Assembly (NCBI GenBank): GCA_016841745.1
Contig: JAENYO010000003.1
Span: 186,001-250,000, forward strand
Reading direction: 5' to 3'
DNA: 64,000 bases
DNA from: Acetomicrobium hydrogeniformans
GTDB taxonomy: Bacteria; Synergistota; Synergistia; Synergistales; JAFGMB01
Shown here piece after piece: positions 13,554 to 34,000 of this stretch. The notes below the pieces were generated by a model. The model searched no databases, was not told the DNA's origin, and worked only from the letters and a program-made list of their open reading frames with translations. The translations under genes were made by a program, and so were the position numbers. Positions within the stretch are counted from its first letter, which is position 1. Each line of letters starts with the position of its first letter.

Positions 13554-14063
13554 TTGTTGAACAGTTCGGATGCTACAATAATTGTTTCGGTTATAGGTAC
13601 ATCAACGGCTTCGAGTGAGATATATGCCCTTGCCCTTGAGGTGGGAAGGCTGCTTGTCCGAAGAGGATGTATTGTGGCCTGCGGAGGAAGAGGCGGGGTT
13701 ATGGAGGCGGTATGCCGGGGAGCTTTCGAGGAGGAAGGGATATCCATAGGATTTCTGCCTGGTGGTATAGAAGAAGCTAATTCCTACGTTACCATTCCCA
13801 TTCCGACCGGTCTGGGTGAAGCCCGGAATCTTCTGGTAGTTTCAGCCGGGAAAGCTGTCATATCGATCGGCAGTGCCTTTGGGACCCTGTCAGAGATCGG
13901 TTTTGCCCTCAAGTCCGGGAAGCCTCTTGTGGGCCTTGCAACCTGGAAAGCTATTGATGAAGAAGGAAATATATTTCCTGCAATGATGGCATCCTGTCCC
14001 GAAGAGGCAGTAGAGATGGCTCTTTCTTCCATATCTGGAGGTAATGATCTTGTCAAAGGTTGA
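13554..14063 (+). CDS. SLOG-family (TIGR00725-like) Rossmann nucleotide-binding protein
   Basis: About 169 residues with the fold of the LOG/DprA-like (SLOG) superfamily: VSVIGTSTAS at the start, ACGGRGGVMEAVCRGAFEEEG (the GG-x-GG-xME-type loop), and IPTGLGEARNLLVVSAGKAVISIGSAFGTLSEIGFALKSGKPL. It matches the uncharacterised group labelled TIGR00725. GTG 13545 has its purine run (AGGGGG, 13538-13543) only 1 nt away, so TTG 13554, 10 nt away, is the more likely start. The end overlaps the next gene by 14-20 nt, so translation is probably coupled. Unusually, it sits inside an ABC importer operon; a link to the transported nucleotide- or vitamin-like ligand is inference. Confidence 0.75.
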   Translation: MLNSSDATIIVSVIGTSTASSEIYALALEVGRLLVRRGCIVACGGRGGVMEAVCRGAFEEEGISIGFLPGGIEEANSYVTIPIPTGLGEARNLLVVSAGKAVISIGSAFGTLSEIGFALKSGKPLVGLATWKAIDEEGNIFPAMMASCPEEAVEMALSSISGGNDLVKG

Positions 14064-15102
14064 ACTCAGGGGCGTAACAAAAAAATTTGGCAGGACTACT
14101 GCCATATCTTCTCTTGATCTTTGTGTCGAGAAAAGTGAGTTCCTTTCCCTGGTCGGTCCCTCTGGTTGCGGCAAAACAACTACCTTGAGGCTTATAGCAG
14201 GTTTTATCCGTCCCGATTCGGGAAAAGTGCTGATTGGAAACAAAGATATGAACAGGGTCAGTGTTAAAAACAGGGATGTGGGGATCGTCTTCCAGAATTA
14301 TGCCCTTTTCCCGAATATGACAGCTTCGGAAAATGTTGCTTTTGGCATGAAGGCAAGAAAGGCAGAGCAGGGGACGATAACTACCAGAGTTACGGAACTG
14401 CTCGAAATGGTGGGTCTTTCAGCAAAGGCAACTTCCTTCCCTAATGAACTTTCCGGAGGTCAGCAGCAGAGAATAGCCCTCGCCAGGGCTTTGGCCATCG
14501 AGCCCAGAGTGCTCCTTCTGGATGAACCCCTCTCTGCACTTGATGCCAAAGTAAGAAATACGCTGAGATTTGAGATCAAAAGGATCCAGCAGGAAAGCGG
14601 TATAACCACCATTTATGTGACTCACGACCAGGAGGAAGCCCTTGCCATCTCTGACAGGGTAGCCCTGATGAATTCTGGCAGGATAGAACAGATAGGTACT
14701 CCAGGACAGATCTACTCTAGACCGTCAACCCTTTTTTCGGCCAATTTTGTAGGGGTTAACAACCTTATTAAGGGTGATTACAAGGGAAATGAGATCTTTA
14801 GATGGGCTGGAGGTACTGTGTCTGCTGCCTGTAGTTGCGGGTTAAAGCCGGGAAGATGCTGGTTATCCATAAGACCGGAAAAGATAAAGATCGAGAAGAC
14901 AGAAGAAAGTCAGTCCAATTCTGTGAGTGGTGTCTGCAGGGGAAAGATCTTTCTCGGTCCCCTTGTCAGACTTGCTGTTGAAAGCTATGGAGAGATGTTT
15001 CTTGTGGACCTTCTGAATGAGAACCTTCAGGAAATATCTACAGGTAAAAGAATGGATCTCTATTTTGCTCCCGAAAATACTCTTCTCATAAGAGAGGAAT
15101 AA
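14050..15102 (+). CDS. ABC importer ATPase (PotA/FbpC type)
   Basis: This cytoplasmic ATPase of about 350 residues energises the adjacent permeases. Walker A GPSGCGKTT is near residue 38, the Q-loop in VFQNYALFPNMT near 82, signature LSGGQQQRIALARAL near 135, Walker B VLLLDEPLSALD near 155 and switch His in VTHDQEEAL near 190. A C-terminal TOBE-like domain (SIRPEKIKIEK) follows. ATG 14044 is only 2 nt after GGAGGT, whereas TTG 14050 is 8 nt after it and is preferred; both are in the same frame. It overlaps the SLOG gene. Confidence 0.9.
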   Translation: MSKVELRGVTKKFGRTTAISSLDLCVEKSEFLSLVGPSGCGKTTTLRLIAGFIRPDSGKVLIGNKDMNRVSVKNRDVGIVFQNYALFPNMTASENVAFGMKARKAEQGTITTRVTELLEMVGLSAKATSFPNELSGGQQQRIALARALAIEPRVLLLDEPLSALDAKVRNTLRFEIKRIQQESGITTIYVTHDQEEALAISDRVALMNSGRIEQIGTPGQIYSRPSTLFSANFVGVNNLIKGDYKGNEIFRWAGGTVSAACSCGLKPGRCWLSIRPEKIKIEKTEESQSNSVSGVCRGKIFLGPLVRLAVESYGEMFLVDLLNENLQEISTGKRMDLYFAPENTLLIREE

Positions 15103-15159
15103 GATTTCCCGGATGGACCGGGGAAAAATACAAACCTGTTTACAGGGAGGTGTTGAAGT

Positions 15160-16233
15160 ATGCGTAAGCTTATGGTTCTTTTTGTTTTAGTGTCCCTTTG
15201 CTTTGCAGGGGCAACTTCAGCGGATATCACCAAGGAACTATATCCTGGTGAAAGGGATCTCTATGAAGCAGCAAAGAAGGAAAGCGGTCTTAACAGTTAT
15301 GACACAGGACCCACATGGGCTAACTGGCAGGCTCTTTTTGACGGTTTTGAAGCAAGGTACGGAATCCAGATCAACTATAATGATCTTGGAAGCGGTGCCA
15401 CAGTTGTTCGTCTCGATAAGGAGAAGAACAACCCCCAGGGCGATACTGCCTATTATTTCATGCCCTTCGGAGCAGCAGCCGGAGATAAAGGTCTGACTGA
15501 ACCCTTCAAGCCCACTAATTTTGACAGGATCCCCAAGACCCTCAAGGATTCCGAAGGCAAGTGGTTCTGTATTCACAAGGCTACTATTGTCTTCGTGATC
15601 AACAAGAAGCTTGTGAAGGATGTTCCCATGGGATGGCAGGATCTGCTTGAGTCCAGGTACAAGAAGTCGGTTGTCTATCTAGACCCAAGGACCACCGGTA
15701 TCGGTTACGCCATAACCATAGCCACTACCTATGCGAATGGTGGAAACCTGGATAACATGGAGACGGGTATCAACTATCTTGCCGAGCTTCAGAAGGCCGG
15801 AAATGTCCGCATGATAGAGAAAACTACAGAATATGACAAGTTCATCAAGGGTGAGATCCCCGTCTGGATCACCTACGATATGAATGCCTACAGGGCAAAA
15901 TACATAGCAGGCCTCGGTGATGATATTGAGATCGTCATACCGGAAGAGGGAACAATTGCTTCCCCCTATGCCATCAGCCTCGTAAAGGGCGGACCCAACC
16001 CCAACGCCGGAAAACTCTGGCTCAACTACATTACATCCGAAGAAGGCCAGGGGCTCTTCGCCAAAGGCTTTGTCCGGCCAATCCTTCCGGGATTCGATTT
16101 CCCGGAAGAAGTGGCTGACAAGTTCCTTCCCGATTCAGACTATGAAAGAGTTATGGATGTAGACTGGGTGAAAGCAAAGGAAGTACAGAAAGAAGCTTCA
16201 GATCTTTGGGGCAGCAAGGTTCTTGGAGAGTAG
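15160..16233 (+). CDS. ABC importer periplasmic substrate-binding protein (AfuA/iron-polyamine type)
   Basis: A 357-residue exported binding protein. The signal peptide is MRKLMVLFVLVSLCFAGATSA, with cleavage near residue 21. The mature part follows the two-lobe pattern of class II (family 1/6) binding proteins, with DTGPTWANWQALFDGFE early, GSGATVVRLDKEKNNPQGD near residue 80, a VFVINKKLV hinge strand and a late KGGPNPNAGKLWLNYITSEEGQ block. Related proteins bind iron(III), phosphonates, sugar phosphates or thiamine. No tyrosine set for iron could be confirmed, so the ligand remains open. GGGAGGTG lies 7-9 nt before ATG 15160. Confidence 0.82.
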   Translation: MRKLMVLFVLVSLCFAGATSADITKELYPGERDLYEAAKKESGLNSYDTGPTWANWQALFDGFEARYGIQINYNDLGSGATVVRLDKEKNNPQGDTAYYFMPFGAAAGDKGLTEPFKPTNFDRIPKTLKDSEGKWFCIHKATIVFVINKKLVKDVPMGWQDLLESRYKKSVVYLDPRTTGIGYAITIATTYANGGNLDNMETGINYLAELQKAGNVRMIEKTTEYDKFIKGEIPVWITYDMNAYRAKYIAGLGDDIEIVIPEEGTIASPYAISLVKGGPNPNAGKLWLNYITSEEGQGLFAKGFVRPILPGFDFPEEVADKFLPDSDYERVMDVDWVKAKEVQKEASDLWGSKVLGE

Positions 16234-16241
16234 CAAAGACA

Positions 16242-17078
16242 ATGGAACGCCGGGGCTGGATATATATACTGCTTCTTCCCATAACGATCGTTCTGGCAGT
16301 GTTCCTGCTTTGGCCCTTTGTGCTTGTTTTCTTGGAAAGCCTCTTCTCCGAGGGGAGGCTTTCCCTTGTCAATTACACATCTCTTTTCATTAAAGGGCTT
16401 TACCGGGAATCCCTTGCTACAAGTCTTATCCTGTCTTTCAGCACCGCTCTTCTGGGTACTTTGATCGGGATTCCCCTTTCGTATGCTCTTCACAAAAGCG
16501 GCCGAAAAACAAGAGGTTTTCTTCTTTCCATAAACGCCATTCCCCTCACCTTCAGCGGACTTGTGGTAGGTTTTTCTTTCATAGTTCTTCTGGGGACGAG
16601 CGGATTTTTCACTCTTCTGCTTAAACAGTTCTTCGGCATAAATCCTCTTGAATTTTCAGCCTTCCTCTTCACCTGGAGAGGGCTCATGGTGGCCTATCTC
16701 TACTTCCTGATCCCGAGGATGATCCTTACCATGATCTCCGCATGGAGCAATGCCAACTGGAGCCTTCTGGAAGCTGCAGTCAGTCTTGGGGCAGGGCCTT
16801 TTACAGTGCTGTTCAAGGTTTTGCTGCCCATGCTTGGGCCCGCTATCCTTGCTGGTTCTTCTCTTCTTTTTGCCGTAAGCATGGGAGCCTATGGAACAGC
16901 TTTTGCCCTCACAGGAGTGGCCGTGAAGATCCTTCCCCTCGTTATTTTTACCCATGTATCGGATCTGGCCGCTGATATTGAAAAGGCCGATTCCCTTGCT
17001 GTGGTTCTTGCTCTGGTCACAACCGGAGTGATACTTCTCTACGAGCAGGTTTTTTCCCGAAAACTTGTGAAAAGGTAA
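16242..17078 (+). CDS. ABC importer permease, PotB/CysU type
   Basis: The 278-residue second permease of the system has six helices and an EAA loop (EAAVSLGAGPFTVLFKVLLPMLGP, about residues 180-205). The open frame begins at TTG 16206 inside the previous gene, but ATG 16242 gives a normal N-terminus (MERRGWIYILLLP) with GGAG 13 nt upstream. Starting just after the binding-protein stop, it closes the operon permease-SLOG-ATPase-binding protein-permease. The order is unusual because the two permeases bracket the rest. No strong terminator follows. Confidence 0.87.
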   Translation: MERRGWIYILLLPITIVLAVFLLWPFVLVFLESLFSEGRLSLVNYTSLFIKGLYRESLATSLILSFSTALLGTLIGIPLSYALHKSGRKTRGFLLSINAIPLTFSGLVVGFSFIVLLGTSGFFTLLLKQFFGINPLEFSAFLFTWRGLMVAYLYFLIPRMILTMISAWSNANWSLLEAAVSLGAGPFTVLFKVLLPMLGPAILAGSSLLFAVSMGAYGTAFALTGVAVKILPLVIFTHVSDLAADIEKADSLAVVLALVTTGVILLYEQVFSRKLVKR

Positions 17079-17656: not shown

Positions 17657-19636
17657 ATGATCGAAGGTAGGAAACGTGTATCTATCGAGGCCGTGAGTCC
17701 GGAGGTCGACTGCGGAAGGTTTCCGGTGAAAAGGATCGCAGGAGAGAAGGTCGAAGTTGAGGCCCATGTCTTTGCCGATGGTCACGACCAGGTGGTGGCC
17801 TGCCTCATGTACAGAAAGGCCGATGAGGTTTCCTGGAACAGGGTTTTCATGAGCCCTCTCGAAAATGACCGATGGACCGGAAGCTTCCAGGCTGACGAAA
17901 TGGGAGCATGGTTTTACACGGTCTGCGGATGGATTGATCACTTTCTGACATGGCAGGAGGATCTGAAAAAAAGGATATATGCAGGTCAGGAAATAGAACA
18001 GGAACTATTGATAGGGGTAGAGATGATCAAGGAAGCCAGGTCCCGGGTTGATGAGGATGCTGATGAGATCTTCGACGGGTGGTGCCGGAGCATTGAAGGC
18101 CAGGAGGATGGGTTTCGGGCGGCCCGGATAGCTTTGAGTCCTGAACTTGGAATCCTCATGAGCCGATATGTCGAGGAGGACCGTATTTCATTTTATGAAA
18201 AAGAACTGGTCCTCTGGGTGGACAGGGAGAAGGCCGGCTTCAGTACCTGGTACGAAGTTTTCCCCCGATCCTGGGGAGAAGGTGAAGGGCATGGTACTTT
18301 CGCGGACCTGGAAAAGCAGATCCCTGAAATTTCCAGGATGGGTTTCGATGTACTCTATCTTTCGCCTATCCATCCCATCGGTATGATCAACCGCAAGGGG
18401 AGGAACAACTCCATAACTGCAGGGCCGGATTCCCCGGGCAGTCCCTGGGCCATTGGATCCGTAGAAGGCGGGCATAAATCCATACACCCCCAACTGGGGA
18501 GAGAAGAGGATTTCCTGTCTCTGATCCGCTGTTCAAAGGAATGGGGCATGGAAATAGCCCTGGATCTGGCTTTTCAATGCTCTCCCGATCACCCCTATGT
18601 TAAAGAGCATCCTGAATGGTTTCGCTGGCGTCCGGATGGAGTCATTCAGTATGCTGAAAACCCTCCTAAAAAGTATGAAGATATTGTTCCTTTCGATTTT
18701 GAATGTCAGGATTGGCAGGCCCTGTGGGATGAACTGGGAAGTATCCTTTTCCACTGGATAGATATGGGAGTGAGGATCTTCAGGGTGGACAACCCCCATA
18801 CGAAACCTTTTGCTTTCTGGGAATGGCTCTTTAATTCGGCCAGAAAGGATCATCCCGATGTGATCTTTCTTTCGGAGGCCTTTACTCGTCCCAGGGTTAT
18901 GTCCCGGCTGGCGAAGGTGGGCTTCAGTCAATCCTACACCTATTTCACATGGCGCAATACAAAATCAGAGTTACAGACTTACCTGGAAGAGCTGATCAGG
19001 GGAGAGCTCAGGGAATACTTCCGGCCCAATTTCTGGCCCAATACGCCTGACATCCTTCCCCAGTTCCTACAGTTCGGAGGCAGGGCAGCCTTTGTTTCAC
19101 GGCTTGTCCTTGCGGCCACCCTTTCATCCAATTACGGCATCTATGGACCTGCTTTTGATCTCTGCGTATCCGAGGCTATGGAAGACAGAGAGGAGTATGC
19201 GGATTCCGAAAAATACGAGATAAAAAGGTGGGATCTGAACAGTCCCGCCAGTCTCAGGGATTTTATAGAAAGGGTGAACCGCATAAGAAATGAAAATCCG
19301 GCACTCTGGAAAACCTTCAACCTTAAGTTCTACGAGGTGGACAACGACCAGATCATTTTTTTCGAAAAAAGGACGGAAGACCTCTCGAATGTCGTCATGG
19401 TGGCTGTCAACCTGGATCCTTTCCACAGGCAGTCGGGTACGGTAAGGGTCCCTATCGGGGATCTTGGCATAAGTTCGGAGGATTCCTATATGCTTCATGA
19501 ACTCATCAGCGATGAAAGGTGTCTCTGGCAGGGAGAGTTCAATCGTGTGGATCTGGATCCCGGCATCCTGCCGGCAGGAATTTTTATTGTAAATCGGACA
19601 CTTCGGAAAGAATCAGATTTCGACTACTTCATGTGA
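17657..19636 (+). CDS. glgE: Alpha-1,4-glucan:maltose-1-phosphate maltosyltransferase
   Basis: This 659-residue GH13 enzyme transfers maltosyl units from maltose-1-phosphate to the non-reducing end of alpha-1,4-glucan. The N-terminal beta-sandwich (about residues 1-110, VKRIAGEKVEVEAHVFADGH) and the helical insert (110-195) are characteristic of GlgE. The barrel starts at TWYEVFPRSWG. The catalytic Asp nucleophile is D378 in FRVDNPHTKP and the acid E407 in LSEAFTRP; PHTKPF is a GlgE hallmark. Length fits the family (650-700). AGAGGGAGTG precedes ATG 17657. It is the first of six alpha-glucan and trehalose genes; the TreS-maltokinase fusion that makes its substrate starts 14 nt downstream. Confidence 0.93.
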   Translation: MIEGRKRVSIEAVSPEVDCGRFPVKRIAGEKVEVEAHVFADGHDQVVACLMYRKADEVSWNRVFMSPLENDRWTGSFQADEMGAWFYTVCGWIDHFLTWQEDLKKRIYAGQEIEQELLIGVEMIKEARSRVDEDADEIFDGWCRSIEGQEDGFRAARIALSPELGILMSRYVEEDRISFYEKELVLWVDREKAGFSTWYEVFPRSWGEGEGHGTFADLEKQIPEISRMGFDVLYLSPIHPIGMINRKGRNNSITAGPDSPGSPWAIGSVEGGHKSIHPQLGREEDFLSLIRCSKEWGMEIALDLAFQCSPDHPYVKEHPEWFRWRPDGVIQYAENPPKKYEDIVPFDFECQDWQALWDELGSILFHWIDMGVRIFRVDNPHTKPFAFWEWLFNSARKDHPDVIFLSEAFTRPRVMSRLAKVGFSQSYTYFTWRNTKSELQTYLEELIRGELREYFRPNFWPNTPDILPQFLQFGGRAAFVSRLVLAATLSSNYGIYGPAFDLCVSEAMEDREEYADSEKYEIKRWDLNSPASLRDFIERVNRIRNENPALWKTFNLKFYEVDNDQIIFFEKRTEDLSNVVMVAVNLDPFHRQSGTVRVPIGDLGISSEDSYMLHELISDERCLWQGEFNRVDLDPGILPAGIFIVNRTLRKESDFDYFM

Positions 19637-19650
19637 GGGGAGGAGAAAGC

Positions 19651-22600
19651 ATGTCTATTCTGTCAGAAGACGGAGATCAGGATCTGCTCTGGTTCAAGGA
19701 TGCAATCGTTTATCAGCTGCACGTGAAGTCTTTCTTTGACTATAATGGCGATGGTATTGGCGATTTGCGGGGTTTGCTGGAAAAACTCGACTACCTTAAA
19801 AACCTGGGAGTGACGGCGATCTGGCTTCTCCCATTTTATCCATCTCCCTTGAAGGATGACGGTTATGATATCTCGGGATACATGGATGTTAACCCGGATT
19901 ACGGAAATCTGAAGGATTTCAGGCGTTTACTCAAAGAGGCCCATTCCAGAGGCATGAGGGTTATCACAGAGCTGATCCTCAACCATACATCGGACCAGCA
20001 TCCCTGGTTCCAGAAGTCCCGGAGAGCGAGACCGGGTTCTGCATGGCGTAATTATTATGTCTGGAGCGGCACTTCCGAGAGATATAGTGATGCGCGCATC
20101 ATTTTTCAGGATTTTGAGACCTCCAACTGGAGCTGGGATCCTGTTGCAGGCAGCTATTTCTGGCACCGTTTCTACTCCCACCAGCCGGATCTGAACTTCG
20201 AGAATCCTCAGGTAAGGAAGGCAATGGTGAAGGTGCTTGACTTCTGGTTGGATATGGGTGTGGATGGTCTCAGGCTGGATGCTGTCCCCTACCTTTTCGA
20301 ACGGGAAGGGACGAACTGCGAAAACCTCCAGGAGACCCACGACTTTCTTAAAAGCCTGAGAACCCATGTGGACAGCCATTTCCCGGGCACCATGCTTCTT
20401 GCGGAAGCCAACCAGTGGCCTGAAGATGCTGTGGCATATTTCGGGCAGGGTGAGGAGTGCCATATGGCCTTCCATTTCCCCATAATGCCGCGGATATTCA
20501 TGTCCATTCAGATGGAGGACAGGTTTCCCCTGGTGGACATTCTGGACCAGACCCCCCATATCCCGGATATATGCCAGTGGGCCATGTTCCTTCGAAACCA
20601 TGATGAATTGACCCTGGAAATGGTCACTGACGAAGAAAGAGACTACATGTACAGGGTGTTTGCAAGGGAGAGGCAGGCCCGGATAAATCTGGGCATCCGC
20701 CGAAGGCTTGCGCCATTGATGGGAAACAACAGGCGGAAAATAGAGCTCATCAATGTCATTCTTCTGTCCCTTCCCGGGACTCCCGTTATCTATTATGGCG
20801 ATGAGATAGGCATGGGAGACAATTACTTCCTCGGCGACAGAAATGGAGTCAGGACTCCCATGCAGTGGTCGGCCGACCGGAACGCAGGTTTTTCCAGGGC
20901 TAATCCCCAGAAACTATTCCTTCCTCCCATCATAGATCCCCAATACCATTTTGAGGTGGTCAATGTGGAGAACCAGGAAACCAGCCAGTCCTCACTTCTA
21001 TGGTGGACCAAACGGATTCTGACCACCAGAAAGCGTTTCAGAGCTTTTGGCAGAGGGCAGATCGAGATTCTTGCTCCGGAAAACCCGAAGATACTTGCCT
21101 TCATCCGTCACTGGGAAGATGAGATCATACTCGTTGTGGCCAACCTGTCCGGTTTTTCTCAGGTCGTGGAACTTGATCTCTTCCAATATGCGGGCCTGAT
21201 GCCTGAAGAGATAGTCAGTGGGAACAGCTTTCCCCAAATAAAGGAGCGTCCCTACCTCCTGACCATTGGACCTCACGATTATTTCTGGTTTCTTCTTGCA
21301 CCTGAAAAAGATTCCATCGAGGTTTCAGGAACAAGGGAGATTCCCGAACTGAAGTTTTCGAAATGGGAGGATCTTCTTTTCGGGATTTCCCGGAAGGCCC
21401 TGGAAGAAAAAATTCTCCCTGCCTTTCTGCAGAAGTGCCGGTGGTTCGGTTCCAAATCACGATCCATCAGCAGGGTATCCCTGATGGATCATTTTACTCT
21501 CAAACTGGATTCCCATCTTTCCTTCCTTACTTTTACCAGGGTCCAGTTCACGGAGGGTTCCTCAGAGACCTACCTGCTCCCCCTTTCTCTCGCGACAGGT
21601 GACGGCGCATTCCGACTCAGGGAAGATCACCCGGATGCGGTCATTGCGAAAGTGGTTCTGATGTCTGGCGAGGGTGTTCTTTACGATGGGGTTCATGATG
21701 AGCATTTCAGGGAAAAACTGCTTCATCTTCTGATCCACAGCAGGATGCTGAAAGGTGAAGAGGGAAGAGCTTTTTCAGGAAGGGGAACAGGTCTGAAAGG
21801 GCTCGTCTCTGGTCTATCCGTGCGTTCTCAAATTATGAAACTCGATCAGAGCAACTCTTCCATCCTCTATGGAAAAAAGCTTGTCCTTAAACTTTTTCGC
21901 AAACTGGAGGAAGGTCTGAACCCGGAAAAGGAACTGGCGGGTTTCCTTTCGAAGAAAGCCGCTTTTCAGAATGTGCCTGTGTTCAGGGGGATCCTTGAAT
22001 ACAGAACTGGAGAGGGGGTACCCCTGACGGTGGGTATACTTCAGGATTATGTCCCCAATCAGGGAGATGCCTGGGGTTATACTCTTGGTACTCTCGATAC
22101 CTGCTTTGAAAGCATCCTTGCCAGGCCTGAAGAGTTCAGAGATCTTGCGCATTGGGCCCCCCCCCTTCTGGATACCGATCTCCATGGTCAGCAGCCCCTT
22201 CTTACAGAGACCATTGGTGAGTTTTTTCTGGAAATGATCCAGCTGCTCGGTAAAAGAACTGCAGAACTCCATATAGCCCTGGCCTCTGGCCGGTCCGATC
22301 CGGACTTTGTCTCCGAGCGTTTCTCAGCCCTCTATCAGCGTTCGGTTTACCAGAGCGTAAGAGAGCAGGTCAGGAGAACTCTTCTTGCCCTGCGAAGAAA
22401 TCTTGAGAGGCTACCGGAAACCGTGAAGGCAGAGGCCGCCGAAACCGTGAAGGCAGAGGCCGAAATACTGCGCCGTATCCGCAGATTGACCGAAGGAGTT
22501 ATCGATTCATGCAAGATCAGGATACATGGAGACTTCCATCTTGGCCAGGTCCTTTTCACAGGCAAGGATTTCATGATCATTGATTTTGAAGGCGAGCCCG

Positions 22601-22974
22601 CAAGACCCTTTAGCGAAAGGAGACTGAAACGTTCTCCCTTCAGGGATGTGGCCGGGATGATCCGTTCCTTCGATTATGCGGTTTCCACGTCCTTTAGAAA
22701 ACGGATCGTTCTCCGACCTGAACTTGCTCCCATACTGGAGCCTCTTCTTGACCCCCTTTACAGGGCGTTGAGCTCGGTGTTTCTCCATGCCTATCTTGGA
22801 AGAGCAGGTAACGCTGAATTCATTCCTGCTGACAGAAACAGGATCGAGATACTTCTGGAAGCCTTCCTGCTCGAGAAAGCCCTTTATGAGATCAGATACG
22901 AGATGGATAACCGTCCCGAATGGATTCTCACACCCCTTAAAGGGATACGCAATATCCTGGAGAGGGGCGTCTGA
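19651..22974 (+). CDS. treS: Trehalose synthase-maltokinase fusion
   Basis: The 1107-residue protein joins two enzymes. Residues about 10-560 are trehalose synthase (GH13, trehalose-maltose isomerisation): FKDAIVYQLHVKSFFD opening, D210 in GLRLDA, E252 in LLAEANQWP and D318 in RNHDEL. Residues about 620-1107 are maltokinase, which phosphorylates maltose to maltose-1-phosphate: CRWFGSKSR opening, IHGDFHLGQV with D961 and IIDFEGEP with D978, in a kinase-like fold. The product feeds GlgE directly. The frame extends upstream to 19519 inside glgE, but AGGGGAGGAG before ATG 19651 fixes the start. Oddities are a C9 run at 22157-22165 and a 24-bp tandem duplication at 22417-22464, both in the kinase half. 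Confidence 0.93.
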   Translation: MSILSEDGDQDLLWFKDAIVYQLHVKSFFDYNGDGIGDLRGLLEKLDYLKNLGVTAIWLLPFYPSPLKDDGYDISGYMDVNPDYGNLKDFRRLLKEAHSRGMRVITELILNHTSDQHPWFQKSRRARPGSAWRNYYVWSGTSERYSDARIIFQDFETSNWSWDPVAGSYFWHRFYSHQPDLNFENPQVRKAMVKVLDFWLDMGVDGLRLDAVPYLFEREGTNCENLQETHDFLKSLRTHVDSHFPGTMLLAEANQWPEDAVAYFGQGEECHMAFHFPIMPRIFMSIQMEDRFPLVDILDQTPHIPDICQWAMFLRNHDELTLEMVTDEERDYMYRVFARERQARINLGIRRRLAPLMGNNRRKIELINVILLSLPGTPVIYYGDEIGMGDNYFLGDRNGVRTPMQWSADRNAGFSRANPQKLFLPPIIDPQYHFEVVNVENQETSQSSLLWWTKRILTTRKRFRAFGRGQIEILAPENPKILAFIRHWEDEIILVVANLSGFSQVVELDLFQYAGLMPEEIVSGNSFPQIKERPYLLTIGPHDYFWFLLAPEKDSIEVSGTREIPELKFSKWEDLLFGISRKALEEKILPAFLQKCRWFGSKSRSISRVSLMDHFTLKLDSHLSFLTFTRVQFTEGSSETYLLPLSLATGDGAFRLREDHPDAVIAKVVLMSGEGVLYDGVHDEHFREKLLHLLIHSRMLKGEEGRAFSGRGTGLKGLVSGLSVRSQIMKLDQSNSSILYGKKLVLKLFRKLEEGLNPEKELAGFLSKKAAFQNVPVFRGILEYRTGEGVPLTVGILQDYVPNQGDAWGYTLGTLDTCFESILARPEEFRDLAHWAPPLLDTDLHGQQPLLTETIGEFFLEMIQLLGKRTAELHIALASGRSDPDFVSERFSALYQRSVYQSVREQVRRTLLALRRNLERLPETVKAEAAETVKAEAEILRRIRRLTEGVIDSCKIRIHGDFHLGQVLFTGKDFMIIDFEGEPARPFSERRLKRSPFRDVAGMIRSFDYAVSTSFRKRIVLRPELAPILEPLLDPLYRALSSVFLHAYLGRAGNAEFIPADRNRIEILLEAFLLEKALYEIRYEMDNRPEWILTPLKGIRNILERGV
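22157..22165 (+). repeat. C9 homopolymer inside the maltokinase domain
   Basis: Nine consecutive C bases after GGG, in frame as Ala-Pro-Pro-Leu. Tracts of this length are slippage-prone, and one base lost or gained would truncate the kinase half while leaving trehalose synthase intact. Confidence 0.8.
22417..22464 (+). repeat. In-frame 24-bp tandem duplication in treS-maltokinase
   Basis: GAAACCGTGAAGGCAGAGGC begins each of two adjacent 24-bp units, which encode ETVKAEAA and ETVKAEAE. The unit lengthens a charged helix or linker between the kinase subdomains, shortly before the catalytic IHGDFH block. Confidence 0.9.
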
Positions 22975-23004
22975 TGAGAGAAAAGAGGCATAGGAGGAAT
23001 TCAG

Positions 23005-24945
23005 ATGAGTAAAGAAAAAGAAAAGGTCCTTTACGATTTTACCCTCTTTTCTGATGAGGACATTTATATCTTCAGGGAGGGCAACCATACTCACCTTTTT
23101 GAAAAGCTTGGAGCCCATATACTGAAAGAGAGTGATCCCGGAGGGGTCTATTTCGCAGTGTGGGCACCAAATGCGGAAAGAGTTTCCGTGGTTGGGGATT
23201 TCAATGCATGGATACCCGATATTTACCCGTTAAGGGCAAGGAAAGATCTCTCGGGGATATGGGAGGGCCTTATCCCGGGGCTTCCGGATGGAGAAAGATA
23301 CAAGTATCACATTGTTTCACTGCAAAAGCGGTACAGGGTAGACAAGGGGGATCCTTTTGCCTTTGCCTGGGAGACGGCTCCGAAGACCGCTTCGGTGATC
23401 CATGATCTTGCCTATGAGTGGCATGACGGGGAATGGATGTCCGGCAGAGGGGCTTTGAACTCAATGGATTCACCCCTTTCCATCTACGAGGTACACATGG
23501 GTTCATGGAGACGTGTATCGGAAGAGGGCGGAAGGTCCCTCTCCTACAGGGAGATGGCTCCCCTTCTGGCTGAGTACGTTAAGGAGATGAATTTTACTCA
23601 CGTAGAGTTCCTCCCGCTCATGGAGCATCCCTTTTACGGTTCCTGGGGATACCAGACTCTGGGTTACTTTTCTCCATCAAGCCGATACGGAACCCCTCAG
23701 GATATGATGTTTCTGGTCGATTACCTTCACCAGCAGGGGATCGGGGTGATCATGGACTGGGTACCCTCTCATTTCCCGAACGACGAGTATGGCCTGGTCT
23801 TTTTCGACGGGACCCATCTCTACGAACATCAGGACCCGAAAGAGGGTTTTCATCCCGAATGGAGGAGCTGCATATTCAACTACGGCCGCAACGAGGTAAG
23901 GGCCTTTCTTCTGAGCAGTGCTGTTTTCTGGCTGGAAAAGTATCATGTTGATGGATTGAGGGTCGATGGAGTTGCTTCCATGCTTTACCGGGATTATGCC
24001 AGGAATGAGGGGGAATGGATACCGAACCGCTTCGGGGGAAGAGAAAACCTCGAGGCCATTTCGTTACTGAAAAAACTGAATGAGACTATCTACAGGGAAT
24101 TCCCGGATGTACAGGTAATTGCAGAAGAGTCTACATCCTGGCCCATGGTCACCCGTCCGGTTCACGTAGGAGGCCTGGGTTTCGGAATGAAGTGGAATAT
24201 GGGATGGATGCACGATGTTCTTGACTATGCCTCAAAAGATCCTGTCCATCGTAAATTTCACCATAACCGTCTTACCTTCGGAATGATATATTCCTATTCC
24301 GAGAATTTCCTTCTTCCCTTTTCTCACGACGAGGTTGTTTATGGAAAGAGATCACTCCTTGAGAAGATGCCGGGAGACGACTGGCAGAAATTTGCCAACC
24401 TCCGACTTTTCCTAGGCTATATGACGGCCTATCCCGGGAAGAAACTCCTTTTCATGGGAGGAGAGTTTGGGCAGAGAAGAGAGTGGGATCACGAACAGAG
24501 CCTGGATTGGGATCTTCTGAAATATCCGCCTCATCAGGGGATAAAACGATGGGTTAAGGAAGTCAACGGTATTTACAGGAATACCCCTGCCCTTTACAGG
24601 AAGGATTTTGATCCCGAGGGATTTGAATGGGTCAGCTGTGATGATGTTGAAAACAGCATTCTGGTTTTTTTGCGTAAAGGTTCCCTTTCAGATCCTACGA
24701 TCCTCGTTCTATGTAACTTTACCCCAGTTCCCAGGCATAACTACAGAGTTGGTGTACCCTCCGGTGGATGGTGGAAGGAGATACTCAACAGCGACTCCCC
24801 TGTTTACGGAGGTAGCGGCCAGGGAAATATGGGGGGTAGAGAAGCCTCACCCGTTCCCTTCCACGGGAAAAGTCATTCCCTTTCACTGACTCTTCCTCCT
24901 CTTTCGATCGTTCTTTTCCGCAGAGAGGGTGAAGATGTTTCATGA
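23005..24945 (+). CDS. glgB: 1,4-alpha-glucan branching enzyme
   Basis: This 646-residue GH13 enzyme introduces alpha-1,6 branches into glucan. A CBM48 domain sits at about residues 20-130 (YFAVWAPNAERVSVVGDFNAW). In the barrel are SIYEVHMGSWRR, catalytic D321 in GLRVDGVASML, E374 in IAEESTSWP and FSHDEVVYGK. A C-terminal beta-domain follows from about 540. Length is normal for the short type lacking a second CBM48. AGGAGG lies 8 nt before ATG 23005, and the gene starts 30 nt after the TreS-maltokinase stop. Together with GlgE it makes branched glucan. The N-terminus (TLFSDEDIYIFREGNHTHLFEKLGAH) is the usual GlgB opening. Confidence 0.95.
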   Translation: MSKEKEKVLYDFTLFSDEDIYIFREGNHTHLFEKLGAHILKESDPGGVYFAVWAPNAERVSVVGDFNAWIPDIYPLRARKDLSGIWEGLIPGLPDGERYKYHIVSLQKRYRVDKGDPFAFAWETAPKTASVIHDLAYEWHDGEWMSGRGALNSMDSPLSIYEVHMGSWRRVSEEGGRSLSYREMAPLLAEYVKEMNFTHVEFLPLMEHPFYGSWGYQTLGYFSPSSRYGTPQDMMFLVDYLHQQGIGVIMDWVPSHFPNDEYGLVFFDGTHLYEHQDPKEGFHPEWRSCIFNYGRNEVRAFLLSSAVFWLEKYHVDGLRVDGVASMLYRDYARNEGEWIPNRFGGRENLEAISLLKKLNETIYREFPDVQVIAEESTSWPMVTRPVHVGGLGFGMKWNMGWMHDVLDYASKDPVHRKFHHNRLTFGMIYSYSENFLLPFSHDEVVYGKRSLLEKMPGDDWQKFANLRLFLGYMTAYPGKKLLFMGGEFGQRREWDHEQSLDWDLLKYPPHQGIKRWVKEVNGIYRNTPALYRKDFDPEGFEWVSCDDVENSILVFLRKGSLSDPTILVLCNFTPVPRHNYRVGVPSGGWWKEILNSDSPVYGGSGQGNMGGREASPVPFHGKSHSLSLTLPPLSIVLFRREGEDVS

Positions 24946-24963
24946 GCCAGAGTTGCGGATTTA

Positions 24964-24996
24964 AGCAGCCCTTTCCTGTACATGGCTGGTTTTTTC
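24964..24996 (+). terminator. Weak hairpin with T-run between glgB and glgX
   Basis: Short stem CAGCC/GGCTG with a 13-nt loop followed by GTTTTTTC. It may partly end the first half of the cluster. No convincing separate promoter was found before glgX, so read-through is possible. Confidence 0.35.
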
Positions 24997-25060
24997 ATAT
25001 AGCAACAGGTGATGTAGCGTAATATTATAGTTTCTTTATTCCTGGCTGGAGGTGAAGAGC

Positions 25061-27178
25061 TTGGAGATATGGCCTGGAAAACCTTTTCCCTTGGGTGCGA
25101 CTTTTGATGGCACAGGTACAAATTTTTCTCTTTTCTCCGAGATTGCCGATAAAGTGGAATTGTGTATCATCAATGATGAAGGACAGCAGATCTGCGTAGA
25201 TCTTCCTGAATATACTGCTCTTTGCTGGCATGGTTATCTCCCCTCTGTAGGTCCTGGTCAGAGATATGGCTTCCGGGTCCATGGTCCCTGGGACCCCGCA
25301 AAGGGGCATCTCTGCAATCCATCCAAGTTCCTTATCGACCCTTATTCGAAGGCCATAGAGGGTCGGGTTCAGTGGAATGAGGCTGTATTTCCTTATTTTT
25401 TCAGGGACACTGAAGAAAGCAGGAATGATATGGACAGCCTTCCATTCATGCCTCGGAGCGTAGTGATAGATTCATATTTCGACTGGGGAGATGACCATTG
25501 TCCTAAGGTGCCTCTTAATGAAACGATAATTTATGAACTGCATGTGCGGGGATTTTCAATCAGGAATCCGGAAATTCCCGAAAATATAAGGGGCACTTAC
25601 TCTGCTCTGGCGCATCCGGTTTCGATAAGGCATTTTCACGATCTGGGGATTACCTCCATCGAGCTTATGCCCATACATCAATTTATCCATGACAATTATC
25701 TTATGGAAAAGGGACTGAGGAACTACTGGGGGTATAACTCCATCGGCTACCTGGCTCCTCATGATGAATATTCCAGCCTTCATCCTGGGGGAGGAGAGGT
25801 CCGGGAATTCAAGGAGATGGTAAGAGCCCTGCACCGGGAGGGTATCGAAGTGATCCTGGATGTAGTATATAACCACACTGCAGAGGGTAATCACCGGGGT
25901 CCCGTGCTGTCCATGAAGGGAATTGACAATGTTGCCTACTACAGGCTTACAGAAGAGGATCAGCGTTATTACATGGATTATACCGGAACGGGAAATTCCC
26001 TGAACGCCCGGCACCCTCATGTGCTGCAGCTCATAATGGATTCCCTCCGGTACTGGATCAATGAGATGCATGTGGACGGTTTCCGTTTCGATCTCGCTTC
26101 CACATTGGCCAGGGAACTTTATGATGTAGATAAGCTTTCCTCTTTCTTCGATATCATTCAGCAGGATCCTGTAATAAGTCAGGTGAAACTTATTGCTGAA
26201 CCCTGGGATATCGGAGAGGGCGGCTATCAGGTGGGTAATTTCCCACCCTTGTGGTCCGAATGGAACGGGAAATACCGGGATTGTATGAGGGATTTCTGGA
26301 GGGGAGAAGAACAGATGATAGGGGAATTTGCCTCCAGATTCACAGGAAGTTCCGATCTATACGAAAATTCCTGCAGAAAGCCCTTCGCAAGCGTTAACTT
26401 CATAACTGCCCACGATGGTTTCACACTGGAAGACCTGGTTTCCTACAATAAAAAACACAATGAGGCCAATGGGGAAAAGAACAGGGACGGTGAGGACCAT
26501 AACAGGTCCTGGAACTGTGGTTTGGAAGGTCCAACAGAGGATGGACAGGTTCTTTCCCTGAGGAAAAGGCAGAAACGGAATTTCCTTGCGACCCTGATGC
26601 TCTCGCAGGGCATTCCCATGCTCCTTGGCGGAGATGAACTGGGGCGTACACAGAAGGGGAACAATAATTCCTACTGTCAGGATAACGAAATTTCGTGGTT
26701 TGACTGGGAAAGGGTGGATGATGCCCTCATCTCCTTCACGAAAAATCTGATCTTCTTCAGGAGAGAGCATCTTGTTTTCCAGAGGAAAAAATGGTTCCAG
26801 GGCAGGTCCAAGAAAGGCAATGAGCTTGGAGATATTGGCTGGTTCAACTCTGACGGGAAGAGAATGACTGAGGATGACTGGAATACGGGGCATACCAGGA
26901 GTATGACTATCTTTCTTAACGGCGAAGCCATACCAAGCCGCGATTCCAGGGGAATGCCTGTACGGGATGATTCTTTCCTGATCCTGGTAAATGCCAGTAA
27001 CGAATCCGTGAATTTAACCCTTCCCGAGGAAAAATGGGGGCTGTCATGGAGTAAAGTTCTTGATACCGCAGTAGATTCTTTCATCGATCCCCCCGCAGAA
27101 ATGGAGGCGGGCCAAAATCTGATGATGGGAGGAAAGTCTCTCGTGGTGCTGCAACACAGAAGAGATGATGTGAAATGA
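25061..27178 (+). CDS. glgX: Glycogen debranching enzyme, GlgX/isoamylase type
   Basis: This 705-residue GH13 enzyme hydrolyses alpha-1,6 branches. An N-terminal CBM48 domain (GKPFPLGATFDGTGTNFSLFS) spans about residues 5-110. Then come ETIIYELHVRGFS, DVVYNHTAEGN, D344 in GFRFDLAST, E380 in LIAEPWD and TAHDGFTLEDLVSYN, all typical of GlgX/TreX. GTG 25052 lies within the ribosome-binding site (TGGAGG, 25047-25052), so TTG 25061, 8 nt further, is preferred. Its last codons overlap treY (ATGA), which indicates translational coupling. Debranched chains are the substrate for TreY, so this gene is the entry to the trehalose-making half. Confidence 0.92.
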   Translation: MEIWPGKPFPLGATFDGTGTNFSLFSEIADKVELCIINDEGQQICVDLPEYTALCWHGYLPSVGPGQRYGFRVHGPWDPAKGHLCNPSKFLIDPYSKAIEGRVQWNEAVFPYFFRDTEESRNDMDSLPFMPRSVVIDSYFDWGDDHCPKVPLNETIIYELHVRGFSIRNPEIPENIRGTYSALAHPVSIRHFHDLGITSIELMPIHQFIHDNYLMEKGLRNYWGYNSIGYLAPHDEYSSLHPGGGEVREFKEMVRALHREGIEVILDVVYNHTAEGNHRGPVLSMKGIDNVAYYRLTEEDQRYYMDYTGTGNSLNARHPHVLQLIMDSLRYWINEMHVDGFRFDLASTLARELYDVDKLSSFFDIIQQDPVISQVKLIAEPWDIGEGGYQVGNFPPLWSEWNGKYRDCMRDFWRGEEQMIGEFASRFTGSSDLYENSCRKPFASVNFITAHDGFTLEDLVSYNKKHNEANGEKNRDGEDHNRSWNCGLEGPTEDGQVLSLRKRQKRNFLATLMLSQGIPMLLGGDELGRTQKGNNNSYCQDNEISWFDWERVDDALISFTKNLIFFRREHLVFQRKKWFQGRSKKGNELGDIGWFNSDGKRMTEDDWNTGHTRSMTIFLNGEAIPSRDSRGMPVRDDSFLILVNASNESVNLTLPEEKWGLSWSKVLDTAVDSFIDPPAEMEAGQNLMMGGKSLVVLQHRRDDVK

Positions 27179-29823
27179 GAGATCTGCCTGTGTGCACCTA
27201 CAGGATCCAGATGACGCCTTCATTCGGTTTCAGAGATGTAACCCTTCTCATGCCCTATTTTGTCCGCCTGGGAGTAAGCCATCTCTATACCTCTCCCTAT
27301 CTGCAGGCTTCGCCGGGCAGCACTCATGGCTATGATGTGACCGATCCTCTCAGGATAAATGAGGAGCTGGGCGGAGAAAAGGGGCACAGGGAATTCATAT
27401 CTGCCCTGCGGGAGAATGGACTGAAAAACCTCATTGATATAGTACCTAACCATATGGCCATTTCCGGACCGGAGAACAGATGGTGGTGGGACGTCCTGGA
27501 GAACGGCCCCTCCAGCCCTTATGCGGCATTCTTTGATGTTGACTGGGAACCTCCCGAAGCTTCAATGAAAAATAAAATACTTCTTCCTGTCCTTGAGGAC
27601 CATTATGGAAGAGTCCTCGAAAAAGGACTAATCTCATTGGCAAGAGAGGGATCAGACTTTCATATCTGTTATCGTAACAGGGTTTTCCCCATGGCTCCCA
27701 GATCAATATCGGGACTTCTTGAGACAGTAGGCAAAGAAGCGGGCCATTCGGAAATCCTTTTCTTTGCACATTCCATTGAGAACCTTCCCCTGCCAAGTGT
27801 AACCGATCATGAATCTACCAGTTTGCGGCACCGGAACATCAGGGTCATCAAACAAGGTATTTCCCGTCTTTTCAATGTTGAACCTGACCTCAAGGATATT
27901 GCAGACAGGGTGATAAGTGATGTCAATTCAGATCCTGATGCCCTTGATGAGATATTGGAAAAACAGAACTACAGGCTTTCTTTCTGGTGTAAGGCAAGGG
28001 AGGATCTGGCGTACAGAAGGTTTTTCGATATCAACAGCCTTGTAGGTCTGAGGGTAGAGGATGAAGGGGTATTCAGGGAAACCCATTCTCTTGTCCTTGG
28101 CTGGCTGAAAGATGGACTTGTTGAAGGTATCAGAGTGGATCACCCTGACGGACTGAGGGATCCGGAAGGATATTTTTCCAGGATAATAGAGGAAGCCCCC
28201 GGGTCCTGGATAGTCGCGGAAAAGATACTGGTACAGGGGGAAAAACTTAGAAAAAGCTGGTCCATCCATGGTACTACGGGATACGACTTTCTTAACCTGG
28301 CGGGAGGTCTTTTCGTCGATCCTTCTGCCCAGAGAAGTCTGACCAGATTTTATAACAGATTTGCGGAGAATGAGAAACCCTTTGAGAAAATTATCATAGA
28401 TAAGAAAATGCTTGTCCTGAATGAACTTTTCGGGAGCGATCTGAACCGCCTCAGCCAGATGCTCCTTGATATCTGCAGTTACTACAGGAAATATCGCGAT
28501 TACATGAGGAACGAAGTAACCTTTACTCTCAAGGCCCTCATTGTATCAATGGATGTCTACAGGACCTATGTTTCTCCCGAAAGGGGGCGGCCAGGGAGAG
28601 ATGACAGGAAAGTCATTCGAAGGTGTGCTGGAAATGCTGCAATTCATTTTCCCCATATTGACCTTGATCTGCTCAGGTTCATTCTGGATATCCTGCTTCT
28701 GAAAAAAAGAGGAGCTATGGAGAGTGAATTTGTGGCCAGGTTTCAGCAGCTTACGGGTCCTGTAATGGCCAAAGGAGTGGAAGATACCGCCCTCTACTGT
28801 TATTACCCCCTGATATGTCTGAACGAGGTCGGAGGGGACCCTTCCGACTTTGGGACATCCCTGAAAGAGTTTCATTTCCAGATGAACGACAGGGCTGTTT
28901 CCTCTCCATTAAGCCTTCTTGCAACTTCTACTCATGACACCAAGAGGAGTGAGGATGTAAGGAGCAGAATAGCCCTTCTGTCAGAGATCCCCAGGGAATG
29001 GAAAAAGAGGGTTGTGGAGTGGAAAGCCATGAACAGTTCTTTCTGGAACGGGGCAGGACCGGACAGGAACATGGAATATTTTATTTACCAGACCCTGGTG
29101 GGTATCTGGCCTATTTCAGATGAGAGGCTTTTGTCCTATCTGGAAAAAGCTGCGAGAGAGGGCAAAGAATATACTTCATGGAACAGGATCGATAAAGAAT
29201 ATGAGGATAAGCTGAGTAGTTTTGCCAGGGGAATTCTTTCACATACCCCCTTTATCAGGGATCTTGAAAATTTTCTTGAGATACTTACTGTGCCGGGAAG
29301 GATCAACTCTCTTTCCCAGACCCTTCTCAAGCTGACACTTCCGGGGGTTCCGGATATTTACCAGGGCTGTGAGATCTGGAATTTCAGCCTTGTTGATCCT
29401 GACAACAGAAGAGAGGTGGATTACAAAAGACTTATTGCATTGCAGAAAGAAGCAATGGGTCTCGATGGTTCACCCGATTTAAGCACAGATGATATAGGCT
29501 TGAGTAAAATGTGGCTTATCATGAAAACCCTCAATTTCAGGAGGGAAAATCCCAGCATTTTCGAGCCTGGTTCAAGCTACAGTGTCCTTCATCCTTCCGG
29601 AGAGAAAGCGAATCATCTGGTTGCTTACATGAGGAACGAAGATTGCCTGGTAATGACTCCAAGACTGCCTCTGAAACGAGGCAGTTCATGGAGTGAAACC
29701 TTTCTTAATGTTCCGGAGGGAAACTGGAAAAACCTCTTTACGGGAGAAGAATTTTCGGGAAACAGGATAAGAATTGAGGATATGCTGAAGATTTTCCCTG
29801 TGGCTCTCCTCTACAGGGAATGA
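27175..29823 (+). CDS. treY: Malto-oligosyltrehalose synthase
   Basis: An 882-residue GH13 enzyme that turns the reducing-end alpha-1,4 bond of a maltodextrin into an alpha,alpha-1,1 bond, making maltooligosyl trehalose. The opening VCTYRIQMTPSFGF and YTSPYLQASPGSTHGYDV are TreY signatures. The catalytic pair is D322 in GIRVDHPDGL and E349 in WIVAEKIL; the late region has KGVEDTALYCY, STHDTKRSEDVR and LKLTLPGVPDIYQG. The length is within the TreY range. ATG 27175 overlaps the glgX stop by four bases (ATGA). TreZ follows after 9 nt and completes the TreYZ pathway. Confidence 0.95.
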   Translation: MRDLPVCTYRIQMTPSFGFRDVTLLMPYFVRLGVSHLYTSPYLQASPGSTHGYDVTDPLRINEELGGEKGHREFISALRENGLKNLIDIVPNHMAISGPENRWWWDVLENGPSSPYAAFFDVDWEPPEASMKNKILLPVLEDHYGRVLEKGLISLAREGSDFHICYRNRVFPMAPRSISGLLETVGKEAGHSEILFFAHSIENLPLPSVTDHESTSLRHRNIRVIKQGISRLFNVEPDLKDIADRVISDVNSDPDALDEILEKQNYRLSFWCKAREDLAYRRFFDINSLVGLRVEDEGVFRETHSLVLGWLKDGLVEGIRVDHPDGLRDPEGYFSRIIEEAPGSWIVAEKILVQGEKLRKSWSIHGTTGYDFLNLAGGLFVDPSAQRSLTRFYNRFAENEKPFEKIIIDKKMLVLNELFGSDLNRLSQMLLDICSYYRKYRDYMRNEVTFTLKALIVSMDVYRTYVSPERGRPGRDDRKVIRRCAGNAAIHFPHIDLDLLRFILDILLLKKRGAMESEFVARFQQLTGPVMAKGVEDTALYCYYPLICLNEVGGDPSDFGTSLKEFHFQMNDRAVSSPLSLLATSTHDTKRSEDVRSRIALLSEIPREWKKRVVEWKAMNSSFWNGAGPDRNMEYFIYQTLVGIWPISDERLLSYLEKAAREGKEYTSWNRIDKEYEDKLSSFARGILSHTPFIRDLENFLEILTVPGRINSLSQTLLKLTLPGVPDIYQGCEIWNFSLVDPDNRREVDYKRLIALQKEAMGLDGSPDLSTDDIGLSKMWLIMKTLNFRRENPSIFEPGSSYSVLHPSGEKANHLVAYMRNEDCLVMTPRLPLKRGSSWSETFLNVPEGNWKNLFTGEEFSGNRIRIEDMLKIFPVALLYRE

Positions 29824-29832
29824 AAAGGCGAA

Positions 29833-31617
29833 GTGGAGTATATGAACGAGATCAGGGTATGGGCTCCTGAGGTCGGGTCCCTTAAGCTCGTTACCATGGA
29901 TCGCAGGATCAGGATGAAGGCTCAGACAGGAGGATGGTGGGTCTGCACTTCAGAGCATATCCAACATGGCCTGGATTACAAGTTCTCCATTGACGGGAAA
30001 GCCCCTCTTCCTGATCCCAGGTCCGGCTGGCAGCCCTATGGTGTTCATGGTTACTCCAGGTATATTGACCATTCCCTTTTTCAATGGAAAGACACCGAAT
30101 GGCAGCCCCATGAACTGGGGTCTGCCATTATATACGAACTTCATACGGGTACTTTCAGCGAAGAGGGAACCTTCCAGGGGATAACAGCACATCTGGATCA
30201 TCTTCAGTCCCTTGGCATTACACACATAGAGCTTATGCCGGTAAATTCCTTTTCCGGGGACAGGGGATGGGGATATGATGGGGTATATCCTTTTGCTCCC
30301 ATGGAGAGCTATGGAGGCCCCGATGGGCTGAAGATGCTGGTTGACGAATGCCACAGAAGAGGGTTTTCCATGATCCTTGATGTGGTCTATAACCATCTCG
30401 GTCCAGAGGGGAATTATCTTGGTCATTATGGACCATATTTTACTGAAAAATACTCTACACCCTGGGGTTCTGCCATCAATTTTGACGGACCCGGCAGCGA
30501 TGAGGTCCGCAGGTTCTTTATTGATAATGCCATAATGTGGCTCAGGGATTACCACTTTGATGTTCTCCGGATCGACGCGGTCCACTCTATTTTCGATATG
30601 TCAGCCCTTCATTTTCTGGAGGAGCTTTCTTCAGCAGTGGATCAGTTTTCCCGTAATAACGGAAGGAAGAAATACGTGATCGCCGAAAGTGATCTTAACG
30701 ATCCCCGCATAATAACTCCAAGGGAAAGGGGAGGCTACGGTATTCACGCCCAGTGGTGCGACGACCTTCATCATTCGATACATGCTTTTCTCACAGGAGA
30801 GAGAAAGGGATATTATCAGGACTTTGGGAAACTCGAGGATATAGCAAAGGCACTTAAAAAGGGATATGTATGGGATGGGAAATATTCCTCTTGCAGAATG
30901 AGGAGACATGGTAGATCCTCTGCGGAAATCCGGGGAGACAGGCTTGTGGGCTTTATACAGGATCATGATCAGGTTGGTAACCGGGCCAGGGGAGAGAGGT
31001 TTGATCATCTTGCAGGGACAGGGATGCTGATGTGTGCAGCGGCCCTGTATATTTGTTCTCCCTTCATTCCCATGGTATTTCAAGGGGAAGAATGGGCCGC
31101 AGGAACGCCCTTTCAGTATTTTTCCTCTCATCAGGATCCACAACTGGGAAGGGCCGTAACGGAGGGACGGCGAAGGGAATTCCTTTCCTTCGGTTGGAAA
31201 GAAAAGGATATTCCTGATCCCCAGAACCTGGATACTTTCCAGGGGTCAAAACTCAATTGGAAGGAGCTCTCCGAAGAGGATCATGGCAGGGTGCTGGAAT
31301 GGTACAGAAAGCTTATCGCTGTAAGGAAAAAATTTCCCGAACTGCATGATGGAAGTCTTGACGGGGTCAATGTACGGTTTTCGGAGGAGAAAAAGTGGTT
31401 TTCCTTCCAGAGAGGGCGGATCCTGCTGGCTTTTAACTTCAGTTCAAAGGTAAATCAGGTCCGTCCTCTGGATGATCCCTGTTTCGACATGCTTCTTACT
31501 TCTGACCCCGCATGTGAGATCCGGAAAAATGAACTGTTTTTACCTCCTGGATCTGTTGCCCTTCTCAGGGGTATGAACATCCTGCCATGTGAGATAAACA
31601 GCTATTTTTATGTATAA
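29833..31617 (+). CDS. treZ: Malto-oligosyltrehalose trehalohydrolase
   Basis: This GH13 enzyme of about 594 residues cleaves maltooligosyl trehalose to free trehalose and a shortened dextrin. An N-terminal CBM48-like domain (EIRVWAPEVGSLKLV) leads to IIYELHTGTFS, MPVNSFSGDRGWGYDGVYPF (a TreZ signature), DVVYNHLGPEGNY, D248 in VLRIDAVHSIFD, E285 in VIAESDLNDPR and QDHDQVGNRA. The start may be GTG 29833 or ATG 29842, with only moderate purine runs before each. It is the last gene of the glucan/trehalose cluster. The trehalose it makes can re-enter the pathway through TreS. Confidence 0.95.
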   Translation: MEYMNEIRVWAPEVGSLKLVTMDRRIRMKAQTGGWWVCTSEHIQHGLDYKFSIDGKAPLPDPRSGWQPYGVHGYSRYIDHSLFQWKDTEWQPHELGSAIIYELHTGTFSEEGTFQGITAHLDHLQSLGITHIELMPVNSFSGDRGWGYDGVYPFAPMESYGGPDGLKMLVDECHRRGFSMILDVVYNHLGPEGNYLGHYGPYFTEKYSTPWGSAINFDGPGSDEVRRFFIDNAIMWLRDYHFDVLRIDAVHSIFDMSALHFLEELSSAVDQFSRNNGRKKYVIAESDLNDPRIITPRERGGYGIHAQWCDDLHHSIHAFLTGERKGYYQDFGKLEDIAKALKKGYVWDGKYSSCRMRRHGRSSAEIRGDRLVGFIQDHDQVGNRARGERFDHLAGTGMLMCAAALYICSPFIPMVFQGEEWAAGTPFQYFSSHQDPQLGRAVTEGRRREFLSFGWKEKDIPDPQNLDTFQGSKLNWKELSEEDHGRVLEWYRKLIAVRKKFPELHDGSLDGVNVRFSEEKKWFSFQRGRILLAFNFSSKVNQVRPLDDPCFDMLLTSDPACEIRKNELFLPPGSVALLRGMNILPCEINSYFYV

Positions 31618-33957: not shown

Positions 33958-34000
33958 GCATATGGTATTAGAGACAACGCTGAAGAGGGAGATGGGGAAA

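Follow-up and report, generated by a model that had tools for sequence, protein, structure and literature searches.

Spanning positions 17657–31617 of a 64,000-nucleotide stretch of the Acetomicrobium hydrogeniformans genome (contig JAENYO010000003.1, C14:186001–250000; the whole stretch is referred to here as the window) is a row of six genes, glgE, treS-maltokinase, glgB, glgX, treY and treZ, whose predicted products interconvert trehalose and α-glucan. We read this block, with a probability of about 0.9, as the trehalose/GlgE branch of a complete α-glucan network. The genome (3.04 Mb in 15 contigs, 99.56% complete, 2.52% contamination) also carries glgC, glgA, an OtsA-family gene and a trehalose-6-phosphate (T6P) phosphatase domain, and the block is thus an ordinary α-glucan/trehalose branch of known kind, albeit rare in the phylum Synergistota, rather than a closed loop.

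All six genes lie on the + strand in the order and places given by the initial annotation and are apparently intact. Their coordinates in the window, with scores against NCBIfam models unless stated otherwise, are:

17657–19636, + strand: GlgE; Pfam PF11896 185 bits (cut-off 25) and PF21702 75 bits (cut-off 27); residues 7–647 align with solved GlgE chains, 579 bits; D378, E407, D465
19651–22974, + strand: TreS-maltokinase fusion; TreS domain TIGR02456 891 bits (cut-off 678), maltokinase domain TIGR02457 494 bits (cut-off 375); TreS domain against solved trehalose synthase, 845 bits
23005–24945, + strand: GlgB, branching enzyme (the genome encodes a second one); TIGR01515 905 bits (cut-off 464); D321, E374, D442
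25052–27178, + strand: GlgX, debranching enzyme; TIGR02100 1016 bits (cut-off 641); D347, E383, D455
27175–29823, + strand: TreY, maltooligosyltrehalose synthase; TIGR02401 893 bits (cut-off 499); D322, E349, D588
29833–31617, + strand: TreZ, maltooligosyltrehalose trehalohydrolase; TIGR02402 740 bits (cut-off 539); D248, E285, D379

The treS open reading frame is listed from a GTG codon at 19519, lying within glgE; the true start is probably the ATG at 19651, which is preceded by a good ribosome-binding sequence, GGGGAGGAG. Separating glgB from glgX are 106 bases, the other intergenic gaps are no longer than 30 bases, and glgX and treY overlap by 4 bases, a spacing compatible with a single transcript, on which we infer that all six genes may be carried. 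Promoter-like and terminator-like sites in the scan showed no excess over shuffled sequence (18 versus 17.3 and 15 versus 17.7, respectively).

No GlgE model was among the NCBIfam results for the block proteins, and the assignment of GlgE comes from its Pfam and structural matches. In alignments with relatives, three acidic residues are invariant in each of the six GH13 domains (58 rows for GlgE, 39 for TreS, 24 for GlgB, 7 for TreY, 13 for TreZ and 2 for GlgX, the window included, the GlgX test being weak with its single aligned relative), and these we take to be the catalytic acids. The maltokinase domain gave motif-like matches only; for GlgB, TreY and TreZ some motif patterns had no match, and the residues were located by reading and alignment. 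From these matches, the TreS, maltokinase, GlgE and GlgB activities of the GlgE pathway all appear to be encoded, and the TreY and TreZ equivalogs, together with a debranching enzyme, would make up a GlgX(TreX)–TreY–TreZ route.

The enzyme steps concerned are established enzymology, and the two directions that had been proposed for the block, trehalose to branched glucan and glucan to trehalose, are sound, as are the roles assigned to the enzymes. In the direction of storage, TreS would convert trehalose to maltose, the fused maltokinase would phosphorylate maltose with ATP to maltose-1-phosphate, and GlgE would polymerise this into glucan, to which GlgB would add branches. In the reverse direction GlgX would debranch the glucan, and TreY and TreZ would free trehalose from its chain ends. 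The gene content suggests two sources of supply, namely GlgC and GlgA, which would make linear glucan from glucose-1-phosphate, and OtsA with a T6P phosphatase, which may yield trehalose directly. The inferred flux through the block would probably let carbon pass from trehalose, a compatible solute, into stored glucan and back.

Situated on another contig, C10, are most of the genes of this supply. One strand carries glgC (TIGR02091, 438 bits, cut-off 425), glgA (TIGR02095, 490 bits, cut-off 328), an α-glucan phosphorylase gene (TIGR02094, 559 bits, cut-off 192) and malQ (TIGR00217, 346 bits, cut-off 206), and the other a second glgB (GlgB2; TIGR01515, 899 bits, cut-off 464) followed by a gene for a GH57/DUF3536 protein. 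The OtsA-family gene lies at C10:112 kb (PF00982, 471 bits, cut-off 32.5), and the T6P-phosphatase domain on the same contig as the window, some 6 kb beyond the window end (TIGR00685, 164 bits, cut-off 68). Some motif patterns for OtsA and GlgA had no match. A GlgM route was rejected, as none of nine weak matches in the genome exceeded the TIGR02149 cut-off of 302 bits, the best scoring 73.

The initial annotation had taken the block for a closed trehalose–glucan loop fed solely by imported trehalose or maltose. As it stated, glgC, glgA, glgM and otsAB are absent within the 14 kb block, which holds no entry enzyme; the genome, moreover, has no GlgM above cut-off and no GH37 trehalase (3 of 14 control genomes were positive; GH15 and other trehalase families were not searched), and a sugar-type ATP-binding cassette (ABC) importer is present in the window at 44372–51320. 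The whole-genome search for GlgC, GlgA, OtsA/OtsB and GlgM had been set beforehand as the refuting test, and all but GlgM were present. Trehalose and maltose are thus not the only points of entry, the GlgC–GlgA–TreY–TreZ route by itself already breaking the loop, and the importer's neighbours (KDPG aldolase, KDG-kinase-like and DgaE-like genes) suggest another cargo. Given these genes in the same genome, a closed loop is highly improbable.

Two sets of observations weigh against the complete network as read here, one concerning direct trehalose synthesis and the other contig C10. The OtsA-family protein falls below the NCBIfam OtsA cut-off (TIGR02400, 515 versus 565 bits) and also matches a glucosylglycerol-phosphate synthase model (318 bits, below its cut-off of 569), and to judge by these scores it may use another acceptor. 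The phosphatase domain is fused behind a β-phosphoglucomutase-like domain and is followed by a GH65 gene. This layout resembles a split form of that of mycobacterial OtsB1 (Rv2006). By analogy with M. tuberculosis OtsB1, which a review describes as not being the active T6P phosphatase (PMC11046441), the domain found here may likewise lack that activity. Owing to the OtsA-family score and the OtsB1-like layout, the direct OtsA/phosphatase route is less sure than that through GlgC, GlgA, TreY and TreZ. The fusion protein (531 residues) and the GH65 protein (803 residues) are encoded at C14:253357–257360 (L084:3357–7360), starting some 3 kb beyond the window, with a 4-base overlap, and the best solved match of the latter is 9lb6, named a trehalose-6-phosphate hydrolase (497 bits).

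With contamination estimated at 2.52%, C10 could be misbinned. Its tetranucleotide use fits the window: two C10 stretches correlate with four window stretches at 0.57–0.73, and seven comparison loci of other genomes at 0.13–0.55, although the measure is noisy, a locus on the window's own contig (L006) reaching only 0.20–0.43. As 134 of the 185 Synergistota genomes have glgC above cut-off, its presence in this genome is to be expected. Were C10 contamination, the closed loop would in part regain ground, although the T6P-phosphatase domain lies on the contig of the window itself.

Maltodextrin would be a substrate both for TreY/TreZ and for MalQ, and imported maltodextrins might instead be the main feed, with the block merely rerouting them. 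Such scavenging is favoured by the sugar-type ABC importer downstream of the block (44372–47632), with its UgpC/MalK-like ATPase (50148–51320). Its gene context points elsewhere: found in the same region (40540–51320) are an IclR regulator, the genes for KDPG aldolase and for KDG-kinase-like and DgaE-like proteins already named, an aminotransferase and a threonine-synthase-like protein, perhaps serving to import and degrade an amino sugar acid. This sugar-acid-like setting suggests a cargo other than trehalose or maltose. Also against scavenging, the PF00128 matches in the genome are the six block proteins and GlgB2, with no separate GH13 amylase (other amylase families were not searched), and we regard maltodextrin import as very unlikely to be the main feed. 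The ABC importer genes upstream of glgE (12724–17078), amid which lies a SLOG-like (LDcluster4) gene (13545–14063), resemble 2-aminoethylphosphonate, molybdate and polyamine systems, none above cut-off. A trehalose importer beside the block was rejected as a candidate, the upstream ABC genes resembling other systems and the downstream importer having a sugar-acid-like setting; of the genome's five SBP_bac_1 matches, two lie in the window, and these two places were the ones examined, carriers of the phosphotransferase system and major facilitator superfamily not being searched.

The closest described counterpart of the trehalose/GlgE branch is in Pseudomonas aeruginosa PAO1, in which glgE, treS/pep2 and glgB form one operon and glgX, treY and treZ lie in another (PMC8084333). 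The two operons of PAO1 are separate, the second also including glgA and malQ, and glgC is absent (PMC8084333), whereas in A. hydrogeniformans the two sets are adjacent, and glgC, glgA, the OtsA-family gene and the T6P-phosphatase domain are found elsewhere in the genome. P. aeruginosa is said, in a review that gives the same wiring, to be without a dedicated trehalose pathway (PMC11046441). Deletions and nuclear magnetic resonance are reported to support the glucan/trehalose network in P. aeruginosa, with trehalose linked to tolerance of osmotic stress and the glucan made by GlgE to tolerance of desiccation; a possible ATP-costing futile cycle between the two is also discussed (PMC8084333). 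By analogy with that work, a role for the block in buffering osmolyte and storage pools is plausible. The GlgE pathway of mycobacteria and streptomycetes likewise comprises TreS, maltokinase, GlgE and GlgB. It differs in that TreS and maltokinase are fused in the window, as in many non-actinobacteria (PMC11046441), and in that the present genome has no GlgM above cut-off. A survey describes the complete GlgE pathway as dominantly restricted to Actinobacteria (PMC6686919), and it was the only publication found to pair Synergistetes with GlgE; in a search pairing Synergistota with trehalose, neither term stood in the title or abstract of the eight matches. On gene content, the window block and neighbourhoods in other phyla show that complete GlgE sets exist outside Actinobacteria.

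In its arrangement the block looks like two cassettes set head to tail, glgE-treS/mak-glgB and glgX-treY-treZ, on comparison with other genomes. The second cassette occurs in the same order in G120, of the same family and another genus (71–79% identity), in which GlgE was not found (86% complete), and in G181 (48–65% identity), with no glgE adjacent. In G120, redoxin and DUF3159 homologues precede glgX; their counterparts in the window follow treZ. The first cassette is present as a row in G020 and G008. Since the cassettes are found separately in other genomes, the window joins two known cassettes. At least 12 of 54 named loci (L020, L021, L026, L027, L031, L040, L042, L045, L050, L065, L069 and L070) combine GlgE, TreS-Mak and GlgB with one or more of TreZ, GlgX and TreY, many loci being short, so that neighbourhood counts are lower bounds; L050 has TreS-Mak split in two, and L026 has TreY in three parts. 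L031, from a metagenome-assembled genome of Pseudomonadota, shows all six genes, and L020, from one of KSB1, shares with it glgE, treS-mak and glgB followed by treZ and glgX, the end of the locus truncating the last gene in each case (treY in L031). After glgB, the order is thus treZ-glgX(-treY) in these loci and glgX-treY-treZ in the window. The glgE block of L065 is on a contig filed under the archaeon Methanoperedens; its nearest GlgE relatives in the tree described below are bacterial, which may reflect misbinning or transfer.

The initial annotation had called an α-glucan set unexpected in Synergistota, a view that holds for part of the set only. Synthesis of α-glucan is, by gene content, common in the phylum, with glgC in the 134 of 185 genomes given above, but GlgE is rare (11 of 185), as is TreZ, above cut-off in 4 of 185 and in G020 as a gene split across two contigs. 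Two of the other listed TreZ matches score 246 and 230 bits, and none of the remainder exceeds 151; the weak ones mostly cover model positions 1–250 in frames of about 650 residues, as does the genome's own GlgB2 (142 bits). PF00982 is matched in 59 of the 185 genomes at E ≤0.001, in 55 of them above cut-off. Among the 11 GlgE-bearing genomes, ten have glgC above cut-off and nine a PF00982 match; G006 (91% complete) has neither, and G012 (80% complete) has no PF00982 match.

The patchiness of GlgE in the phylum raises the possibility that the block is a recent acquisition from outside Synergistota. In line with this, its G+C content (48.9%) is above that of the flanks (about 44%), similar blocks occur in distant phyla, and the GlgE of highest identity to that of the window is from outside the phylum (61%, L026, Syntrophaceae). 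A quick tree of 58 GlgE rows speaks otherwise. Its rows are the window and 57 of the 64 loci L020–L083, with L022 dropped as the same record as L076, and L061, L062, L068, L072, L073 and L083 dropped for an aligned GlgE piece shorter than 570 residues. The ten full-length Synergistota rows form one clade (96.8 in the Shimodaira–Hasegawa-like approximate likelihood ratio test, SH-aLRT), suggesting that GlgE had one origin in the phylum, with later losses or transfers inside it, and the rows nearest to the window by path are also from Synergistota; the tree is of one protein, with relatives found by patterns of the window's own GlgE and with the window row flagged as a long branch. In addition, the tetranucleotide use of the block matches that of other window stretches (0.58–0.67), and the gene order after glgB is unlike that of L020 and L031. 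Foreign acquisition, unsupported by this quick tree of one protein, is therefore improbable.

In Synergistota families f3 and f9 (L075, L077, L078, L079 and L080), the stretch separating glgE from glgB encodes, beside a full TreS-maltokinase, an additional, TreS-like protein, with 35–36% identity across about 525 residues. The glgE locus of G006 (L081, G006:C4), a genome with no detected glgC, OtsA or full TreZ, has TreS-maltokinase in two pieces and glgB in three, from decay or assembly error; no transporters were found among the scanned neighbouring open reading frames, one of L081 and six of its relative L082. It could be imagined that both cassettes form one co-transcribed unit in this lineage, so that glucan–trehalose cycling is switched on whole, metabolites setting its direction in place of the separate promoters of Pseudomonas, and that G006 is an import-fed system of the kind first proposed for the block; we regard this combined proposal as unlikely.

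Two other proteins were noted, one encoded in the window at 33962–35914 (650 residues), with no Pfam match at E ≤0.001, and one at 275–277 kb of contig C8 (L004:4769–6979; 736 residues), with a C-terminal GT4 domain preceded by about 350 residues without a family match. For the latter, set aside as a candidate, the nearest model was that of a glycolipid synthase, and it scored below every listed cut-off.

Some Synergistota, a phylum often described as amino-acid fermenters, carry two α-glucan routes as well as trehalose genes; across the phylum glgC is common and the GlgE branch has a scattered distribution. These observations are of use in annotation and in modelling how anaerobes store carbon and adapt to osmotic change, but alter no general view.

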